Shown piece by piece: positions 16,400 to 26,381 of a stretch of 64,000 bases of DNA (position 1 is its first letter; each line of letters begins with the position of its first letter). The notes under the pieces are model-generated. The model did not search any database, had not been told where the DNA came from, and was given only the letters and a program-made list of their open reading frames with translations. The stretch is from Vulcanimicrobiota bacterium. GTDB taxonomy: Bacteria; Vulcanimicrobiota; Vulcanimicrobiia; Vulcanimicrobiales; Vulcanimicrobiaceae. Location: assembly GCA_027452165.1 (NCBI GenBank), contig DAIDGX010000018.1, forward strand, positions 1 through 64,000, written 5' to 3'. Both the position numbers and the translations under genes were made by a program.

Positions 16400-19060
16400 A
16401 TGCACGTCCTTCGCACTCGCGTCGCAGGAGCTCTCTTAGGCTGCGTCGCTGCCTTCGCGCTCGGCATCGCGCCGGCGCTCGCAACCCCAACCCTCTCACT
16501 TTCCGGCGTTTTTGTCACGAAGTCGACGCACGCGCGCATCCCGAATGCGCAAGTGCTGCTCGTGAGCGCTAACGGCCAGCGCATCTATCGCGCCACGACC
16601 GATGCAACCGGAAGTTTTCGCTTCGGTGCCGTGCCTGCGGGCGCGTACCGCGTGGAAACGCAGACGACGGCGTTCTACACGATGCCCCTGCCGGTCGAGC
16701 TGACGGCAAAAGATATTCGTTTGACGATCGAGGGCATTCGTACGATCGCGGCGATCGTGGTCTCGGCGCCGCGCCGGCTCGCCCCTGGAAAATCGGAGTT
16801 GTATCACACGGCGCAAACGCAAGTCGTACTCGACAAGAACATCATTCAGGCTCAGGCGCCGCTCGCCGGCTCGGAACAGCTGCTTGCGGCGGCCCCAGGC
16901 GTCATGCAGGCGAGCTACGGATCGACGGGCGCGGCCAAGGGCATGATCAGCCTTCGTGGCTTCAAGCAAGGCTGGGCGAATCAAGCGGGTGTAGTCGATG
17001 ACGGCCTCTTCGGCGTGACGCTCAACGGCGTGTACCTAAACAATCCGCAGACCGGTATTTGGGAACCCGATGAGGTTCCCGATCTCTCCATCATCTCCGG
17101 GTCACGTGTAACTTTCGGTCCGGGCGATGCCGCCACGCGCACGTTCGATAGCATGGGTGGAACGGTTGACTTTTACACGATTCTTCCGAGCAAGACGTCG
17201 AGCTTTCGCGCGAGCGGCACGACCGGAAGTTTCGGCGGCGAAGGTTATCACTTCGACTTCAGTCGCGCGCTCTCGTCGCACTGGAGCATGCTGGTTGCGC
17301 AGGGGCGAACCTTCACGCAAGGCTTCCGCGACATCGTGGGTTCGGGTCACAGCGCGCCCGGCTCGACGTATGGGAGCTTCGCGGAATTTCAGGATCTCTT
17401 TGCGCGCGGCTCGCTCCTCTTCTTTGGATATTCTGCGGCGGGCGTCGATTATCGCCCGAACCTCGTTCCGGTGACGCCGCTCGCCGGTCCCAACGGCCAG
17501 GTGGTCACGGTCAATGGCTTCGACAATCAAGGCAATCCGATTGCGGGTGCGGCGTACAGTCAGGCCACTACGGGGTTCTACTCGGCTCTGCCGATGTCGG
17601 TCTGGCAGAAGACCGATACCAACGCAACGCGTCTTGCTGCGGTCGATCTTACGTACGATACCGGCTATGGATCGTATCTGACCAATCAATTGTGGTATCG
17701 TCGAGGTGACCGCTTGCACGTCAAAAACTTCAATTTTGACCAAGCGAATAACACGTCACGCTACGAATACAACAACCCGTTCTCGACCGCGTTCGGCGAT
17801 ACGTTTACCTATCATCTCGCGCACGGGCCGCACGACTTTGCGTTCGGAGCGAACCTGCTTTACTCGCACTACAACACCCGTAATGCATTCTGGAACAGCG
17901 ACGTGACGCAGAGCGCGCCGAACCCACCCACCTCGATCGAGGCGCCGTCGAATTTCCGGAGCAACGATTTCTGGATGGCAGATGTAGCATTCTTCGCGCA
18001 GGACACCGTGCATCTGAATGAGCGCACGAACTTCGTCATGGGGGCGCGCGCGGTTGCGCTCAACACGAGCTTCGTCAACAATGGCCTCGTAGCGTTTTCG
18101 GCCTGCGCGAATCCCGCGTCGGTCTGCTACGGCAACAACCACACGACGCAACCGAACTCGGTCACCAGCTTCCATGCAATCGAACCGTCGTTCTCGCTGC
18201 GCTACGCCATCTCGCGCGATCTCGCCGGATACGTGTCGTATGGTCGCGGCATTCGTAACCCGCAGACCTCGCCGGGCGGCCCCTACCAGCGTGTCTCGGT
18301 CGAGGGATTGCAGCCCGAAGCGACCGACGATACCGAGGGCGGCGTGAAATACTACCATCGCATGGTCGGTAGCAATCTCGACGGATCGCCGCGTGAGGAC
18401 TCGGCAACGTTCGGATTGTTCCAGAGCACGCTCTTGAACCAGAATATTCCGATCACCACCGGTCAGGGCCTCAAGGTGTCGTCGGCTACGGGAAGTTCGC
18501 ACTATGCAGGGTTGACGTTCGCCTTTAACGCCGACGTCGCACCGGCGCTCCAAATGTTCGGCAGTTGGTCGGTCACCCACGCGATCTTCAGTAACTATAC
18601 CGTGCCGGGTGTGGGATCATATGCGGGTCTTCCGGTCACGCAGACGCCGACCAATACCGGAAACCTTGGCCTCGTGGCCTCGTTCCACGCGGGAAGTAAT
18701 CTGGTGACGGCGCGAGCGTGGGATCAGTACGTCGGCGCGCAGCCGCTCTGGGACAACTCGGGAACCTCGACGCTCAATCCCGGGTACCAAGGACCCGATC
18801 TGCTCGGGCGCACGATCCCGTCGTACAACCTCGTCAACGGTTCGCTCTCGTTCCATGTCGGTTCGAAGCGCGATCCGCTAACCTTGAGCCTGAGCTCAAC
18901 CAATCTGTTCAACCGCAAGTACAACGTGTTCGAATACCTGACGTCCGGTGCGTACTTTGCCGGCGGTGTCGGTCAGGGGACAAACTATGGCGCGGGTCAG
19001 CTCCTGGCTGATCCGGGCCCGCCGCGCGAAGTGCAGTTCACGATCTCTGTCGGGAGATAG
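16400..19060 (+). CDS. TonB-dependent outer-membrane receptor
   Basis: 886 residues: signal peptide (to about 27, ALGIAPALA), a carboxypeptidase-regulatory-like beta domain (about 30-110), a plug domain (about 130-250, with the GMISLRGF and VDDGLFGVTLNGVYLNN segments) and a long 22-strand-type barrel. The fold takes up large substrates such as siderophores, B12 or glycans with energy from TonB. No TonB box can be assigned with certainty. It sits opposite a VIT1-type iron or manganese transporter, which suggests but does not prove a metal-chelate substrate. No TonB/ExbBD genes are near. Confidence 0.9.
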   Translation: MHVLRTRVAGALLGCVAAFALGIAPALATPTLSLSGVFVTKSTHARIPNAQVLLVSANGQRIYRATTDATGSFRFGAVPAGAYRVETQTTAFYTMPLPVELTAKDIRLTIEGIRTIAAIVVSAPRRLAPGKSELYHTAQTQVVLDKNIIQAQAPLAGSEQLLAAAPGVMQASYGSTGAAKGMISLRGFKQGWANQAGVVDDGLFGVTLNGVYLNNPQTGIWEPDEVPDLSIISGSRVTFGPGDAATRTFDSMGGTVDFYTILPSKTSSFRASGTTGSFGGEGYHFDFSRALSSHWSMLVAQGRTFTQGFRDIVGSGHSAPGSTYGSFAEFQDLFARGSLLFFGYSAAGVDYRPNLVPVTPLAGPNGQVVTVNGFDNQGNPIAGAAYSQATTGFYSALPMSVWQKTDTNATRLAAVDLTYDTGYGSYLTNQLWYRRGDRLHVKNFNFDQANNTSRYEYNNPFSTAFGDTFTYHLAHGPHDFAFGANLLYSHYNTRNAFWNSDVTQSAPNPPTSIEAPSNFRSNDFWMADVAFFAQDTVHLNERTNFVMGARAVALNTSFVNNGLVAFSACANPASVCYGNNHTTQPNSVTSFHAIEPSFSLRYAISRDLAGYVSYGRGIRNPQTSPGGPYQRVSVEGLQPEATDDTEGGVKYYHRMVGSNLDGSPREDSATFGLFQSTLLNQNIPITTGQGLKVSSATGSSHYAGLTFAFNADVAPALQMFGSWSVTHAIFSNYTVPGVGSYAGLPVTQTPTNTGNLGLVASFHAGSNLVTARAWDQYVGAQPLWDNSGTSTLNPGYQGPDLLGRTIPSYNLVNGSLSFHVGSKRDPLTLSLSSTNLFNRKYNVFEYLTSGAYFAGGVGQGTNYGAGQLLADPGPPREVQFTISVGR

Positions 19061-19149: not shown

Positions 19150-19551
19150 TCAGTTGGTCGTCAGTAAGCGCTCGGCGAGCGCGCGTGCTTTCGTTTTGAC
19201 GAGATCGCGAATCTCACGCACGCGTTCCGGCGGCTGTCCCTTGGGATCGGGAAGTCCCCAATCATCGTCGATGCGAGGTACGCCTTGCACGTCGCAGCCC
19301 ATCGTGATGATCAGATGCGCACGTGCGGCGAGCGACGGATCGATCAGCTTCGGGCGTGCGGCCAAGATATCGATTCCATCCTCGGCCATCGCGGCGACGA
19401 CTCCGGCGTTCGGCACGTCGGCCGCCTCGGTTCCGGCCGATGCGATCTCGAGCACGTCGCCCGCGAAATGGCGCAGATAGGCTTCGGCCATTTGGCTGCG
19501 TCCGGTGTTGTGACGGCAGACGAAGAGCACGAGCGGTTTAGCTGATGTCAT
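19150..19551 (-). CDS. arsC: Arsenate reductase, LMW-phosphatase-like (thioredoxin type)
   Basis: 133 residues of the low-molecular-weight protein tyrosine phosphatase fold. The CX5R loop is CRHNTGR at 12-18, followed by S-Q-M-AEAY typical of ArsC. The later DDWGLPDPKGQ provides the Asp-Pro loop, and a second Cys (TMGCDVQ) fits the redox relay of thioredoxin-coupled ArsC. It reduces arsenate to arsenite in the cytoplasm. There is no arsR, arsB or acr3 in the adjacent genes, so export must be encoded elsewhere. Inverted repeats directly upstream look like an ArsR operator. A protein tyrosine phosphatase role is less likely given the CRHNTGRS loop. Confidence 0.87.
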   Translation of the reverse strand: MTSAKPLVLFVCRHNTGRSQMAEAYLRHFAGDVLEIASAGTEAADVPNAGVVAAMAEDGIDILAARPKLIDPSLAARAHLIITMGCDVQGVPRIDDDWGLPDPKGQPPERVREIRDLVKTKARALAERLLTTN

Positions 19552-19623: not shown

Positions 19624-21759
19624 CTATGGGCCCGTGCTTGTGGTGTTGCTCGCGATGAGGCGCGCGTAGTGGGCGCTTGCCTCGGTGGGCTTGCGGGCGA
19701 GGGCGGGATCGGTGTCGAGATCGATGTGAAAGAGCCCGAAGTCGCTGTTGTCATCGAAGGCAAGCCCCCATTCACGATTCGACGTGATGCTCCAACACAG
19801 GTATGCCGCAATAGGGACGCCATGCTCGGCCGCGCGCCGTACCTCGCGGACATGCGCTTCCAGATACGCTGCGCGCGTGAAGCCGTCGGCCTCGGTAACG
19901 CAGCCGTTTTCGATCACGATGATCGGCTTGTCCGGAAATTCTTGCGACTGTTCGCGCAAGATCATCTCGAGCGCGCTCGGCCACACGGGCGCGCTCGAAT
20001 ATTTGAATTGTGATGCGGCGCTCAAACGATGCAATTCGTCGGGCCAGAATGAGGGAACGCCCCAATAGTAGTCGAGTCCGACGTAGTCGAGCGTTCCCAC
20101 GCATTCGGGCGGGCACAAGAAGGCGGGGAGCTTTCCGGCCATGCCAAGATTCCACCAATTCGTGCCGAGCAGCGTGCCGAAAATCGCAATCGACTTGCGT
20201 AGGGCGAACAGCGCTTGCAGCCACGAACGCGTTGCTTGGAAGCGCTTGTCGCCATGGAGCGGCACAAATTCCACGCGGCTTGAATCGCCAAAGATGCGCT
20301 GCGCTATGCGACGCGCGATCTCGGCCTCGAGTCCCGTGTAACGCTGTGCGTCGTTCGTTGCCTCGCACAACGTTGCGACGCCCGGATGCACGCCGACGCG
20401 CAGCTTGCCGCGCTTGCGAATGCGGATCACCGAGCGGTCCATATGCGGCACGTCGTCCGGAACATCGTTCTCTTCGGCGCGTCCGATATCGGCGAGGGTC
20501 CGGCGATTGGCAACCTGCGGAAGGTCGGGCCGCTCGCGTTTGAGCTCGCGCAGGACGTGATCGACGACGTTGAGCAACGTTCGCGCGCCGAATGGCATCG
20601 CCACGGCAAAGTGCTGCTCGGGTGCAGGCAGCCGTTCGAGCGTGAAACCATCTCGAACAAGCGGCTGCAAAACTACGTCGTCGTCAAAGATCGCGTCGAT
20701 GTCGCCTGCACGCAGCGCTTGTGCAGCGTGGGTGGCATCGGCAAAGAACTGCAATCGTGCATCCGGGAAGAACGCGCTCGCGATGCGGGCCGGTAACATA
20801 TCGGAAACCACGCCGATGCGCCCGTCCCACGCCGTATGGTTCTCAGGCATCGGCTTCGCCGCATTGCGTAGAAGACAGAGGTGAGCAGTGAAATATGGTT
20901 CCGAGAACATCGTCGTTGCTTCGCGCTCTGGCGTCATCGTGAGCTGCGCGATCGAACAATCGACGCGTCCGCCTTCGAGCAGCCAGGTTTGCGAGAGGCG
21001 CGCTGCGTGACGCCGGATCTGCTCTGGCGAGGTAACGTGGGTCGCTTGCCGATCGACGATGCGCTGTAACCATCGCGGCAAACCGAGCACAAGCGGATTC
21101 GCTCCAACGCGCGCGTCGGGTCGTCGCTTGCGGATCGCCTCGCGCGATTGCGCGTGCGCGCGGAAGAGGTTCGGTATGAGTGCGAGCACGTCGTCCATCT
21201 GGCGATCGCTCGTCATGTAGGGCGGCTGTCCGGGCGGCATGGCATAGCTGCGCATCCAGAAGCCGCGAATCCAGCCGTACACAAGTTGGTTGGGCTCATT
21301 GAGGGTTACATAGTAGTCGATCAGATCGCCCAAGCGATCGGCGACGATCGCCGCGAACGCCGCCATGCGCTGCGGATATGCGGGATCGAGCAGGCTTGCT
21401 CCGTTGCCGGCGCTTTGAACGTGTAGCGGCCAGGTGTTGTGCACAAGGGTGACCACGGTCTGCATTCCGGCGCCGCGTATCGCTTGCAATACCTCGCGGT
21501 AGTGCGTGAACGCATCGTCATCCCAGCGACCCGGCTCGGGCTCCAGGCGTGCCCACGACAATGAGAGCCGAAAGATCGTGCAACCGAGCGAGCGCGCAAG
21601 TTCCACGTCTTCAGGGTAGCGGTTCCAAAAGTCCGTCGCTCGTCCACGCGGCACGAGGCCGCGAACCCGCTCCCACGCGTCGCGAACGTCGTCGCGCCCG
21701 TCATACGCTTCGCATTGGTGGTCGGCTGTAGCAACGCCGAAACGAATCGAATCGCCCAT
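19624..21759 (-). CDS. GH1 glycosidase with inserted, circularly permuted solute-binding (SBP_bac_3) domain
   Basis: 711 residues in one open frame. GH1 part 1 (1-258) has GVATADHQCEA, RLSLSWARLEPEPG and the acid/base TLNEP at 152-156. GH1 part 2 (515-711) has LDYVGLDYYWG, the nucleophile motif VIENG (Glu617) and WSITSNREWG near 656. Between them lies a type-3 solute-binding domain in the wrong order: its C-terminal portion first (260-408, LEGGRVDCSIAQLTMTPERE and FSEPYFTA), then an acidic linker, then its N-terminal portion (440-514, IRKRGKLRVGV and YTGLEAEIARRIAQRIFGD). Both GH1 catalytic residues are intact. No signal peptide is seen, so it is probably cytoplasmic. I chose ATG 21759 directly before the first barrel strand. 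Likely a beta-glycosidase, possibly gated by a small ligand. Confidence 0.85.
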   Translation of the reverse strand: MGDSIRFGVATADHQCEAYDGRDDVRDAWERVRGLVPRGRATDFWNRYPEDVELARSLGCTIFRLSLSWARLEPEPGRWDDDAFTHYREVLQAIRGAGMQTVVTLVHNTWPLHVQSAGNGASLLDPAYPQRMAAFAAIVADRLGDLIDYYVTLNEPNQLVYGWIRGFWMRSYAMPPGQPPYMTSDRQMDDVLALIPNLFRAHAQSREAIRKRRPDARVGANPLVLGLPRWLQRIVDRQATHVTSPEQIRRHAARLSQTWLLEGGRVDCSIAQLTMTPEREATTMFSEPYFTAHLCLLRNAAKPMPENHTAWDGRIGVVSDMLPARIASAFFPDARLQFFADATHAAQALRAGDIDAIFDDDVVLQPLVRDGFTLERLPAPEQHFAVAMPFGARTLLNVVDHVLRELKRERPDLPQVANRRTLADIGRAEENDVPDDVPHMDRSVIRIRKRGKLRVGVHPGVATLCEATNDAQRYTGLEAEIARRIAQRIFGDSSRVEFVPLHGDKRFQATRSWLQALFALRKSIAIFGTLLGTNWWNLGMAGKLPAFLCPPECVGTLDYVGLDYYWGVPSFWPDELHRLSAASQFKYSSAPVWPSALEMILREQSQEFPDKPIIVIENGCVTEADGFTRAAYLEAHVREVRRAAEHGVPIAAYLCWSITSNREWGLAFDDNSDFGLFHIDLDTDPALARKPTEASAHYARLIASNTTSTGP

Positions 21760-21817
21760 CCTCGCGCAATGCGGTGCGCGCAGGGAGCATACCTTCGCTG
21801 GAGCGAACGCGCCTGCT

Positions 21818-22552
21818 ATGAGATTTGCGAAGAAAACGTGCGTCGTAACGGGTGGCGGCTCGGGCATCGGCCGCGCAACGTGCTTGCAGATGGCGCGCGA
21901 GGGTGCGCAGGTGGTGGTGGCCGATTTGCAACTCGCCGCGGCGCAAGCAACCGTCGCAACGATCGAAGCCGCAGCGGGCGTCGCGATCGCCGTGCAGGTG
22001 GACGTGGGCAATTCGGATCAGGTGCAGGCCGTGATCAACGCCGCCGTCGCGCGTTTCGGATCGATCGACGCGATCGTGAACGATGCCGCGATGATGAGCT
22101 TTACGCCGATTGTGGACATTGCCGAAGCCGATTTCTTCCACGTGATCGGTACCAATCTCGGATCGGTCTTTCTCTTCACGAAGTATGGCGTTCCGCATAT
22201 GCCCGCAGGTGGCGCGATCGTGAACCTGAGTTCGGTGCACGCCCACGCCACCACAGCGAACGTGGTGCCCTACGCCTCGTCGAAAGGCGCGATCGAAGCC
22301 TTCACCCGCGGCGCCGCAATCGAACTGGCATCGCGCAAGATCCGCATCAACGCGATCGCACCGGGCGCCGTGGATACCCCGATGCTATGGAACAATCCAA
22401 ACGTCAAGAGCGGCGTGGAAAAGGTGCAGGGAGCGATCGGCAAGCCCGAAGAGCTTGCTGCGGCGATCTGCTTCCTTGCCTCCGATGAGTCCTCGTTCGT
22501 CAACGGCACGACGCTCGTTGTCGACGGCGGGCGCCTGGATGCTTTAGCCTAA
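21818..22552 (+). CDS. SDR family NAD(P)-dependent oxidoreductase
   Basis: 244 residues, a classical short-chain dehydrogenase/reductase with a Rossmann fold. Cofactor motif TGGGSGIG at 11-18; Asp at the end of the second strand (VVVADLQ) suggests NAD rather than NADP. The usual NNAG is NDAA here. Catalytic Ser in NLSSVHAH, and YASSK (Tyr/Lys) near 148-152. C-terminal PGAVDTPM and the ending NGTTLVVDGGR are typical of 3-oxoacyl-ACP reductase/sugar dehydrogenase-like members. The substrate is unknown. It is divergent from the GH1-SBP gene (58 bp between starts), so a role in sugar metabolism is possible but unproven. Confidence 0.88.
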   Translation: MRFAKKTCVVTGGGSGIGRATCLQMAREGAQVVVADLQLAAAQATVATIEAAAGVAIAVQVDVGNSDQVQAVINAAVARFGSIDAIVNDAAMMSFTPIVDIAEADFFHVIGTNLGSVFLFTKYGVPHMPAGGAIVNLSSVHAHATTANVVPYASSKGAIEAFTRGAAIELASRKIRINAIAPGAVDTPMLWNNPNVKSGVEKVQGAIGKPEELAAAICFLASDESSFVNGTTLVVDGGRLDALA

Positions 22553-23077: not shown

Positions 23078-23788
23078 TTAGCGTTCCGCCTTCTTAAAGC
23101 AATAGAGCGCAGCGGGACGATACGCCGTGCCACTGCGGCGCTGGCCGGTGTCCTCGATAAGGCCCGACGCGAGCATTTTGCGGCGGAACGAGTCTTTATT
23201 GAGTTTGCGCCCGAGTACGGCTTCGTGAATGTGTTGGAGTTCGAAAAGCGTGAATTCATCGGCAAGGAGCTCGAAGCCAATTGGTGCGTAGTTCAGCTTG
23301 CCGCGAATTCGCTGAAGCGCCATCCCGATTATGCGGCCGTGATCGAATCCGAGCTTGAGCGCCTTTCCGGCTTCGTTTCGCACGGCAATACCGTCGTCGG
23401 TAGCTGAGGCGTCGATCCGTGCGATCACTGCATCCTTGTTTCGCGCGACCGCGGTGGCAAAGCGACCTTCGGGAACGAGGGCGTAGTAGGCGACGCTCAC
23501 GATGCGGCCTCGCGGGTCGCGGTTGAGATCACCGAACGTGAAGAGTTGCTCGACGAATACGTCTCCTACTATGGCAGCTTTTGTTCTTAGCGCACGCGCC
23601 GCCGCCGCGTCGAGCGTTTCATCGCGTCCAACAAAGACACCGGGGAGCGCCCAGGTATCTTTGAACGGCTCCTCGTCTCGTTGTGCTAGCAAAGTGACCA
23701 ACGATCCGTCGGATCTAATCGAAAGTAGTACGACGTCCACCGTAACCTCGGGAAGAAACGTCTTCGCGAAATCCTGGCTGTCCATCAA
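23078..23788 (-). CDS. nrtR: NrtR-type transcriptional regulator of NAD metabolism (degenerate Nudix + winged helix)
   Basis: 236 residues. An N-terminal Nudix fold (about 15-145) is followed by a C-terminal winged-helix domain (about 165-236, LADEFTLFELQHIHEAVLGRKLNKDSFRRKML). The Nudix box is broken: where active enzymes have REL-x-EE the sequence has RALRTK, so it should bind but not hydrolyse ADP-ribose-type ligands, as in known NrtR repressors. NrtR proteins repress NAD synthesis and salvage genes and are released by ADP-ribose. Its ATG overlaps the nadV stop, making nadM-nadV-nrtR an autoregulated operon. Confidence rests on both the fold order and the gene context. Confidence 0.88.
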   Translation of the reverse strand: MMDSQDFAKTFLPEVTVDVVLLSIRSDGSLVTLLAQRDEEPFKDTWALPGVFVGRDETLDAAAARALRTKAAIVGDVFVEQLFTFGDLNRDPRGRIVSVAYYALVPEGRFATAVARNKDAVIARIDASATDDGIAVRNEAGKALKLGFDHGRIIGMALQRIRGKLNYAPIGFELLADEFTLFELQHIHEAVLGRKLNKDSFRRKMLASGLIEDTGQRRSGTAYRPAALYCFKKAER

Positions 23789-25167
23789 GCGTATTGAAGG
23801 CGAGCGGCGCGCTCGCGGATCGTTACAAGCGACTCATCGATGAGCAACTCGCCGTTACGATAGACCGGGCGCATCAGGTTTTTGCGGCCTGCGAGCGTTT
23901 CGAGTCGTACCGTCTCAAGGTCGGCGGTGAGGGCGAGGCGACCCGCCTTTGAGCGTTTGGTTGCATCGCCCTTTGGCGATTTGAAAACGTCGACCCACTC
24001 GCCATCGATCATCGCAGCCGAGGTTTTCATCGCAAACTTCATCGAATCGCGATTGACTTTTTGCAGAAGGCCACCGCCCATTCCGTAGGCACAGTTCTCC
24101 GCGCTGAAGCCTGCTTTGAGTATCGCCTCGCCCGTCGAACGAATCGTCGCCAGTTCCATTCCGTCGCCTTGGATGACACGAACGCACGGGGCGAGGACGA
24201 GATAGCCCTTGCTGTTTGTCGTGGATCCGAAACTGCGCGCGAGGGAAGTCATGATACGCGGAACCACCTCGGCCGGATCTCCGGAGTCGGGCCGTACGAC
24301 CAGCGTCGCTCCGCTATTGATAATCTTCTCACGAAGTTGTCGCCCGATGATGACGTCGACCGCGTAGTCGATATCATAGCTGTCAGCGACCATCGCGAAG
24401 AGCTTTCCTGGCTTTGCAAAATGCTCGATCATATTTTCGAAAGAATGCACCTCGCCGTCGCGCCCCCACGACGTCACTGTTGAGTGCTCCATCGCCGGAA
24501 TCGAATACCCGGCCATCGGCTCATGATAGTAGTCCGCTGCGTACGTGAGTGCCGCAGTTGTGTCGGTTCCCAAAAAATTCACGAGATGTGCGGCTCCACC
24601 GATCGCGGCACTTTCATATGACGATACTCCGCGTGCGCCGAAGTCGTGTAATCGGAACGGGAGCACGGAAGCCGGGTCATCGCACGAGCATTCCAGTTGC
24701 TCCAGGATTGTTTGTTGTGCGATGGCGCTAAGCGTGCAGACGGTGGTTGGGTACCAAAGGCGCAGCAGTGCCGTTTCTACGAAGGCGGTCAGCCACGGAA
24801 GCTCGGGATCGGTATTGACGATCTGAACGAGCACATTGCCGGTTGGAACATCGAGCCCTTCGGGAACGGCTTCAATCTCGATGGGAAGCCGGCCGGCGTG
24901 CGTTTCAGCAATGCGCATCCAGCCACGACGATTGAAGGGTAGTCCGTGTGCGGCCACAAGACGTTCGGCTTCTTCGACTTGGGATACCGTTATCGGTGTC
25001 AGGAAATGCTGCTTGAGCAGTCCTTGGAGTCCGAAGAAACGAGCGTATGAAAATGCGCCTCCCCGCGACTCGATGTAGGAACTGACATGCGTCGTTCCCG
25101 GCGGGAGTTGTGCGTAGTGGGAATATTTATAGCTGTCGGTGTCGAGAAGAAGATTGTACTCGTTCAT
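23785..25167 (-). CDS. nadV: Nicotinamide phosphoribosyltransferase
   Basis: 460 residues of the NAMPT/NadV type, which makes nicotinamide mononucleotide from nicotinamide and PRPP. Characteristic features are NLLLDTDSYKYSHYAQ at the start, LHDFGARGVSSYESAAIGGAAHLVNFLGTDT, the SIPAMEHSTVTSWG segment with the catalytic His, LVVRPDSGDP (phosphoribose binding) and YGMGGGLLQKVNRDS. The length and the GSTTNSKGY segment separate it from nicotinate phosphoribosyltransferase PncB. The product NMN is the substrate of the upstream nadM gene, 11 bases away. The third codon position is less GC-rich than in neighbouring regions, consistent with acquisition by transfer. Confidence 0.93.
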   Translation of the reverse strand: MNEYNLLLDTDSYKYSHYAQLPPGTTHVSSYIESRGGAFSYARFFGLQGLLKQHFLTPITVSQVEEAERLVAAHGLPFNRRGWMRIAETHAGRLPIEIEAVPEGLDVPTGNVLVQIVNTDPELPWLTAFVETALLRLWYPTTVCTLSAIAQQTILEQLECSCDDPASVLPFRLHDFGARGVSSYESAAIGGAAHLVNFLGTDTTAALTYAADYYHEPMAGYSIPAMEHSTVTSWGRDGEVHSFENMIEHFAKPGKLFAMVADSYDIDYAVDVIIGRQLREKIINSGATLVVRPDSGDPAEVVPRIMTSLARSFGSTTNSKGYLVLAPCVRVIQGDGMELATIRSTGEAILKAGFSAENCAYGMGGGLLQKVNRDSMKFAMKTSAAMIDGEWVDVFKSPKGDATKRSKAGRLALTADLETVRLETLAGRKNLMRPVYRNGELLIDESLVTIRERAARLQYA

Positions 25168-25178
25168 ATTCGATTTCC

Positions 25179-26342
25179 TTATGCGATGCCCATCATCGTC
25201 CGGATAATGTGCGCGTGATCCTCAAACGTGCGGTCGGCGCGAAGCTCGGAAAGCGGCATCCAAAACGCTTCGGCGGCATCGTCGCCACCGCGAACAGCCG
25301 GCTGCGTTACCTCATTGAGGTCGAAACGGAAAACATGGGTGATTGTCCGTCCGCGGTCCGAGCGATACGGATCGTCGAAGGTTGTCGCACGTGCAGAGAC
25401 AAGAGAGGCGCGTAATCTTTCGATAGATGTGTCGAGGTGCGTCTCTTCGGTGAGTTCGCGGATACACGCGTCGAGAAGTGTCTCGTCTTGCTCGATAAAG
25501 CCGCCAGGAAGCGCCAGCTGTCCCTTTCCGGGCGATGCTTTGCGGCGCACCATGAGTACGTGTCCCGCGTTGACGACCACGGCGTCTACCGTCGTGAATG
25601 TAGGGGGAAACGGCGAGTTGTTCCAGGCTTCTTTATAGCTGCGGACGTGACGCACGTCGTCAAGGAGAGCTTGAAACGGTGCCGTGTGCCAGATGCGCTC
25701 GAGGTGCCCCCGAACCGTGGGTGGCATCGCGCCGGCCAATTCATGAAGTGGCGTTGAGTCATCGCCGCCATAAAGCGCGTGGTCATATATACGCTCGCGA
25801 ATTCGTGTTGCGGACAGGGGATGATTCTGCGCATCGTGTTCGAGCAAATTATCGAGCCGATCCGGATACGGCTCAACATCCACAGCCGGATATCCCGGGA
25901 ACAGTCGCAAATAATAGCAAGAGCGATCTTTAGAAAAGCCAATGATGCCCACGCGTGGCCGACCATCGCGAACCGGAAGATCGCCGTCAACAGTCTCGGC
26001 GACTTTTCGCTGAACTTCTTCTATCCAGGCCGCGTCGTTGTAGAGGTGGTCATTCAGCGGTTTTACGATGACACGCGACGATGCACTGAGTCCGCGCCCT
26101 GGCGAGAAGTGCGCGCCTGAGTCCTCAACGACCGCATCCACGATCATCCGCTGCCGCTCGTCGAATGTGAACGGGTTGCGGGCGCTGCGCGCCGAGTTTG
26201 CGGACCCTACGAGCAAGAGCACATAATCGGAGATCTCAAGGGCCCGGCGCACGACCTTCGCGTGGCCGAAGTGAAATGGCTGAAACCGGCCCACGAAGAC
26301 CAGGCAGTCGAAGTGTTCAGGGACGGGCGCGTCGGTCATCAT
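25179..26342 (-). CDS. nadM: Bifunctional NMN adenylyltransferase / Nudix hydrolase (NadM-Nudix)
   Basis: 387 residues with two domains. The N-terminal nucleotidyltransferase (about 8-180) has FVGRFQPFHFGH, the HxGH nucleotide-binding motif, and makes NAD from NMN and ATP. The C-terminal Nudix domain (about 235-387) has an intact box (GGFIEQDETLLDACIRELTEE), expected to hydrolyse ADP-ribose or similar. This fusion is the slr0787 type known from cyanobacteria and others. I start at ATG 26342 (26339 is equally possible), because the frame upstream opens at a TTG inside the promoter. It is the first gene of the nadM-nadV-nrtR operon. Confidence 0.92.
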   Translation of the reverse strand: MMTDAPVPEHFDCLVFVGRFQPFHFGHAKVVRRALEISDYVLLLVGSANSARSARNPFTFDERQRMIVDAVVEDSGAHFSPGRGLSASSRVIVKPLNDHLYNDAAWIEEVQRKVAETVDGDLPVRDGRPRVGIIGFSKDRSCYYLRLFPGYPAVDVEPYPDRLDNLLEHDAQNHPLSATRIRERIYDHALYGGDDSTPLHELAGAMPPTVRGHLERIWHTAPFQALLDDVRHVRSYKEAWNNSPFPPTFTTVDAVVVNAGHVLMVRRKASPGKGQLALPGGFIEQDETLLDACIRELTEETHLDTSIERLRASLVSARATTFDDPYRSDRGRTITHVFRFDLNEVTQPAVRGGDDAAEAFWMPLSELRADRTFEDHAHIIRTMMGIA

Positions 26343-26381
26343 ATCTGCATTCAACATATATGCTAGATGTAGATATGTCAA
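26340..26381 (-). promoter_or_regulatory. nadM promoter and candidate NrtR operator
   Basis: On the minus strand a perfect -35 TTGACA (26376-26381), a 17-base spacer, and -10 TATGTT (26353-26358). Transcription would start a few bases before the ATG at 26342, so the mRNA is nearly or fully leaderless. Overlapping it are a dyad CATATCT (26340-26346)/AGATATG (26371-26377) and the palindrome CATATATG (26355-26362), candidate NrtR sites. Confidence 0.55.

Follow-up and report, generated by a model that had tools for sequence, protein, structure and literature searches.

Sugar-cleaving enzymes governed by a solute-binding protein (SBP) are known from nature and from engineering. In Pseudomonas aeruginosa, the lytic transglycosylase MltF is activated by muropeptides via its N-terminal regulatory domain (PMC10746161); MltF, found in P. 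aeruginosa and E. coli, is a natural glycan-cleaving enzyme with an SBP_bac_3-type domain. The engineered xylanase-XBP271, on the other hand, is a binding-protein-controlled glycosidase with ligand-dependent output (PMC4896006) and, as in iGluSnFR-type switches, a Venus-flytrap domain and an output domain are united by insertion.

The window analysed here, a stretch of 64,000 nucleotides, contains a gene (19624..21759, minus strand) encoding a 711-residue protein that resembles these systems, as well as both of its parent families, while differing from each. With glycoside hydrolase family 1 (GH1; PF00232, TIGR03356) it shares the barrel fold, the NEP acid/base, the ENG nucleophile and the residues of the -1 subsite, yet it belongs to a clade separate from the sampled Chloroflexota outgroups and is interrupted between beta5 and beta6 of the barrel by a 254-residue insert. 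This insert is like the GlnH/GluB-like SBP_bac_3 proteins in sequence, fold and Arg/Asp ligand signature, but it is permuted, has neither signal peptide nor lipobox, and lies inside an enzyme instead of serving a transporter. In MltF, an unpermuted SBP is joined end to end to the N-terminal side of a lytic transglycosylase domain of another catalytic fold, in a periplasmic, membrane-bound protein, whereas the window protein has a GH1 barrel with an internal permuted SBP. In contrast to the man-made XynA-XBP271, which has its enzyme within the binding protein, the window protein has a permuted binding protein within its enzyme, and the coupling of the two is putative. Both parent families, GH1 and SBP_bac_3, are already known; no report of their combination, a natural GH1 into which a permuted SBP is inserted, was found in openly searchable papers, although databases may list the architecture automatically.

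Domain layout, permutation and catalytic signature

The gene runs on the minus strand from an ATG at 21759 to a stop at 19624-19626, giving 711 codons plus stop with zero internal stops. Pfam places two Glyco_hydro_1 stretches (E 3e-40) either side of two SBP_bac_3 stretches (E 3e-12), both families scoring above their cut-offs (138.5 bits against 22.6 for Glyco_hydro_1, covering residues 7-221 and the C-terminal part; 46.9 bits against 26.4 for SBP_bac_3). Frame and Pfam thus agree with the original prediction of a single open frame in which the two halves of a GH1 barrel enclose two SBP pieces and a linker, with an insert of 254 codons open throughout. Given the frame, Pfam, the relatives and an AlphaFold model, the protein is confirmed as a GH1 barrel broken by an amino-acid-binding SBP_bac_3 domain in circularly permuted order.

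According to Pfam, the structure model and structural alignment, the first half of the barrel (residues 1-257, 20989..21759, minus strand) comprises beta1-beta5 and the acid/base Glu155, and the second half (residues 513-711, 19627..20223, minus strand) comprises beta6-beta8 and the nucleophile Glu617. Between them, also on the minus strand, Pfam and alignments delimit the piece corresponding to the C-terminal part of native SBPs (residues 260-411, 20527..20982), which contains lobe 2 (residues ~298-378, 20626..20868), delimited by comparison with nine relatives from which it is missing. It is followed by a linker joining the native SBP ends (residues ~412-441, 20437..20526), placed by models and alignment, and by the piece corresponding to the N-terminal part of native SBPs (residues 442-512, 20224..20436), which forms the remainder of lobe 1 and was delimited by rejoining and alignments.

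The first SBP_bac_3 stretch begins at profile position 53 of 132. When residues 441-513 were written ahead of 260-411, restoring the native SBP order, a single continuous SBP_bac_3 match was obtained (profile 1-119 of 132, E 2.2e-15), with the score increasing to 57.0 bits. The rejoined sequence also yielded one continuous match in the PDB, to the ancestral amino-acid-binding protein AncCDT-1 (query 6-223, 218 residues, E ~1e-13). These values bear out the earlier claim of a reversed SBP order. Unpermuted SBPs of Chloroflexota align with the two halves of a related protein (L063) separately and in swapped order, at 37-49% identity.

Modelled alone (pLDDT 88, pTM 0.87), the insert is predicted to adopt a two-lobed Venus-flytrap fold, whose structural matches include SBPs for glutamate and amino acids, with Z reaching 13.6 across ~155 residues, the glucopine/deoxyfructosylglutamine SBP SocA with Z ~13.5, and iGluSnFR structures; MltF appears among the matches to the SBP portion in sequence and profile searches. 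Sequential structure aligners take in only the unpermuted part of the model, whose residue 5 onward pairs with native SBP residue ~60-100 onward, as is expected of a permuted copy under such aligners.

The junctions had been predicted to coincide exactly at barrel break and permutation point. They are indeed shared by relatives, yet the exact residues blur in the alignments, since in native SBP coordinates the ends of the two pieces share ~3-5 residues. The linker is poorly defined in the model, yet real. In L063 it reads by eye as a proline-rich native SBP tail followed by a native post-lipobox head (EGT..LRKIQDRG), hence the natural ends appear to have been joined without the signal peptide. 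Both connections enter lobe 1 inside one split helix region. Since the protein starts directly with the barrel, with no signal peptide visible at the N-terminus on inspection, it is likely cytoplasmic. No ABC permease was found among the adjacent ORFs examined.

The AlphaFold model of the full 711 residues, built with 33 relatives as alignment, has a mean pLDDT of 83.9 and a pTM of 0.86, and is predicted to contain a closed GH1 barrel together with the two-lobed SBP. Such a pTM seems too high for two domains of undefined mutual placement. Structural alignment of the model barrel with GH1 structures covers ~380 residues across model residues 1-708 with Z ~35, which indicates that the barrel closes in the predicted model. 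Both catalytic glutamates survive, as had been claimed: the predicted acid/base Glu155 (codon 21295..21297, minus strand; NEP motif, TLNEP) and the predicted nucleophile Glu617 (codon 19909..19911, minus strand; ENG motif, IENG) are each invariant in 41/41 complete forms. Across complete and insert-free forms alike, Gln15, His107, Asn154, Glu155, Glu617, Trp656, Glu663 and Trp664 are invariant, and they include the GH1 -1 subsite residues (Gln15, His107, Trp656, Glu663 and Trp664). One lobe-2-less relative on a low-coverage contig (L067) has Ala in place of Glu155, in a sequence containing a run of X.

Against TIGR03356, the GH1 beta-glucosidase equivalog, the window protein scores 151.6 bits, far below the curated cut-off of 478.5. 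As an insert-free relative also falls below it, with 190.8 bits, the protein is a divergent GH1. By fold and catalytic residues, the protein is predicted to be a retaining-type GH1 beta-glycosidase. In the beta5-alpha5 region the sequence alignment is ambiguous as to which barrel face bears the SBP; the insert follows beta5, and the SBP is plausibly on the catalytic side.

Distribution, natural states and gene neighbourhood

Full-length relatives, at 42-78% identity, come from dozens of Eremiobacterota genomes, as well as from isolates of cyanobacteria and from Chloroflexota, and have the same domain order and shared junctions. Of 60 relatives sampled, 32 genomes gave matches, full-length at 48-78% identity, and the gene is present in 52 of the 149 Eremiobacterota-phylum genomes searched (E <= 1e-60, complete and lobe-2-less forms counted). 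A species-genome scan found the same order in the cyanobacterial isolates Fischerella, Nostoc and Chlorogloeopsis (~42% identity), where the gene is rare (4/386 sampled genomes). It also occurs in Chloroflexota and in a metagenome-assembled genome labelled Proteobacteria, the source of L063; that label was set aside and the genome counted as Chloroflexota, since it shares its phylum set with the Chloroflexota genome G065. The layout recurs in at least three bacterial phyla. A plasmid search returned just ordinary GH1 or SBP matches, none spanning 80% of the query.

Some loci depart from a single intact copy. In Westiellopsis (L069, 4953-7174) the gene is split near the SBP linker into two frames that overlap, and in L057 the frame is broken near residues 144-376; either break may reflect a sequencing error or a pseudogene. 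Genome G860 has two complete copies (L142 and L121), and G690 has a complete and an insert-free copy together (L085 and L138), useful for paralogue comparison.

One might suspect that an error of assembly or sequencing has joined a GH1 gene to a separate SBP gene, given the window genome is in 27 contigs and the 7-bp string TGGCTGC is common to both window junctions (20970-20995 and 20205-20225). However, the domain order and junctions of the window gene are found again in dozens of independent assemblies, some of them from cyanobacterial isolates, the string is missing from most relatives, and purifying selection acts on the insert. As full-length open orthologues in so many independent assemblies rule out chance or misassembly, we consider an artefact extremely improbable. 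The same string was considered as a trace of site-specific or microhomology-driven integration of circular SBP DNA; given its absence from most relatives, this origin was rejected, and chance is the likelier explanation of the string for so old an insertion.

The family exists in three states: without insert (in Chloroflexota), with a complete SBP, and with an SBP devoid of lobe 2. The insert-free Chloroflexota GH1 relatives (L072-L074, L086, L088-L090 and L138) carry just a short loop, or else unrelated sequence, where the insert would lie. In a tree built from the barrel alone, with sampled Chloroflexota GH1 outgroups, the subfamily stands apart from these outgroups with support 100/100, and three insert-free Chloroflexota sequences are deepest. 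The AU test does not reject that the insert arose once (p 0.33), and the insert-free L072-L074 and L088 may be either primitive or secondary losses.

Nine Eremiobacterota relatives lack lobe 2 (~residues 298-378) and keep both lobe-1 pieces. A single loss was rejected (AU p 0.0002) given these nine forms are not one clade. Hence, lobe 2 was lost more than once, with regain being less likely. Lobe 1 is equally conserved with and without its partner, at 0.65-0.70 in the lobe-2-less and 0.61-0.63 in the complete forms.

In Eremiobacterota, a short-chain dehydrogenase/reductase gene (21818..22552, plus strand in the window) is a conserved head-to-head neighbour, for which no NCBI family was above cut-off among the best 25 matches. 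The 58-bp divergent intergenic region (21760..21817) is probably a shared promoter region, given its head-to-head spacing is kept in relatives: 23 of the fetched Eremiobacterota loci, some of them with lobe-2-less forms, have the dehydrogenase in this head-to-head position, the starts of the matches lying 42-95 bp apart. In some cyanobacteria the gene has as its neighbours alpha/beta hydrolase, patatin, acetoacetate-decarboxylase-like and epimerase/3-beta-HSD-like genes, which weakly suggests lipid-linked or secondary-metabolite glycosides as substrates. Elsewhere in the window, a low-molecular-weight phosphatase/arsenate-reductase-like gene (LMWPc; 19150-19551) lies immediately downstream of the GH1-SBP gene. 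Judged by translations, there is a large outer-membrane-receptor-like protein of TonB-dependent type at 16400-19060 and an apparent NAD-salvage cluster at 23078-26381 (minus strand), with Nudix/NrtR-like, nicotinamide phosphoribosyltransferase-like and bifunctional NMN adenylyltransferase-Nudix-like proteins.

Predicted ligand pocket and possible function of the insert

Two residues of the insert align with the arginine (in TPER) and the aspartate of AncCDT-1, residues that in this SBP family hold the carboxylate and the amine of the ligand, respectively. These are Arg279 (codon 20923..20925, minus strand), the predicted carboxylate-binding residue, present in 41/41 complete forms, and Asp360 (codon 20680..20682, minus strand), the predicted amine-binding residue, present in 37/41 and ranking 7 of 81 in conservation among lobe-2 residues. 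A Ser/Thr of lobe 2 contributes to ligand binding in many SBPs; the window protein deviates at this site (SDMLPA). The amino-acid recognition signature is mostly preserved in complete forms. In the lobe-2-less forms, Arg279 is lost in one of nine, and the pocket residue Thr274, present in 32/41 complete forms, is lost in 9/9.

In comparison with three relatives, dN/dS is ~0.19-0.28 for the SBP insert and 0.07-0.13 for the barrel, values that are approximate given dS is near 1. These ratios show purifying selection on the insert. Of the folded parts, lobe 2 is conserved least, with a mean of 0.46 versus 0.75 for the barrel.

The original prediction proposed a natural allosteric glycosidase. The permuted insertion, the catalytic residues, Arg279 and Asp360, and the purifying selection all agree with this idea, whereas its ligand switching stays at the level of a proposal. 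None of the outcomes named as refuting it was seen: the barrel closes in the model, two SBP lobes are predicted, and relatives carry the same junctions. MltF offers a natural precedent. We regard as somewhat probable a cytoplasmic GH1 glycosidase whose activity would depend on an amino acid bound to the Venus flytrap inside it, and which would be uncoupled in the lobe-2-less forms. A GlnH/GluB-like SBP, permuted and lacking its lipoprotein signal, occupies the beta5-beta6 loop of the GH1 barrel. An alpha-amino acid or related compound would bind between the lobes through Arg279 and Asp360, and lobe closure, relayed via the lobe 1 that both junctions enter, would alter how the GH1 active site is shaped or reached. 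In several descendants, deletion of lobe 2, with lobe 1 kept in the enzyme body, would have left a constitutive, uncoupled enzyme, with which the decayed pocket residue and intact catalytic site of the lobe-2-less forms are consistent. For the fuller evolutionary account, in which evolution, much like protein engineers, placed a permuted Venus-flytrap sensor in a TIM-barrel enzyme, a cytoplasmic amino acid switches sugar release and some lineages were later uncoupled by lobe-2 deletion, we see an even chance.

Some observations speak against such a sensor. As both junctions are in one lobe, closure would not obviously strain the barrel. Ligand closure hence need not pull on it, unlike in hinge-inserted engineered switches, and coupling, if real, differs from hinge-strain mechanisms. 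The repeated loss of lobe 2 shows regulation to be dispensable in some lineages, and such dispensability, together with pocket drift, is also expected of a decaying domain. A rival reading is a structural or interaction role, in which a frozen SBP with lost or vestigial ligand binding would serve stability, oligomerisation or partner docking. The retention of lobe 1 through repeated losses of lobe 2, the faster evolution of the SBP relative to the barrel, and the dehydrogenase, a possible docking partner fixed head-to-head in Eremiobacterota even beside lobe-2-less forms, all agree with this role, but it leaves the conservation of Arg279 and Asp360 across three phyla unexplained. We consider it rather unlikely.

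We deem it unlikelier still that the SBP would act in substrate capture, holding the amino-acid moiety of a glycosylated peptide or amino acid, or of an opine-like conjugate, and presenting its sugar to the adjoining GH1 active site, as a specificity module and not an allosteric one. The preserved amino-acid signature and the plausible position of the insert on the catalytic side would suit such a role, as would the match to SocA, an SBP for sugar-amino-acid conjugates, although ordinary amino-acid SBPs match at least as well as SocA. Moreover, amino-acid SBPs normally close their cleft around the ligand, so that there is hardly any space to pass it on, and the lobe-2-less forms retain a full GH1 active site, hence the core reaction can do without the SBP.

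The family is a natural, widely conserved instance of a design mainly thought of as laboratory engineering, a permuted binding protein in an enzyme. Given the insert-free ancestor-like, complete and lobe-2-less forms are all natural, gain and loss of an allosteric switch by domain insertion become directly testable. The family may supply enzyme engineers with ready-made parts, and in soil bacteria and cyanobacteria it may tie the breakdown of glycosides to amino-acid status.
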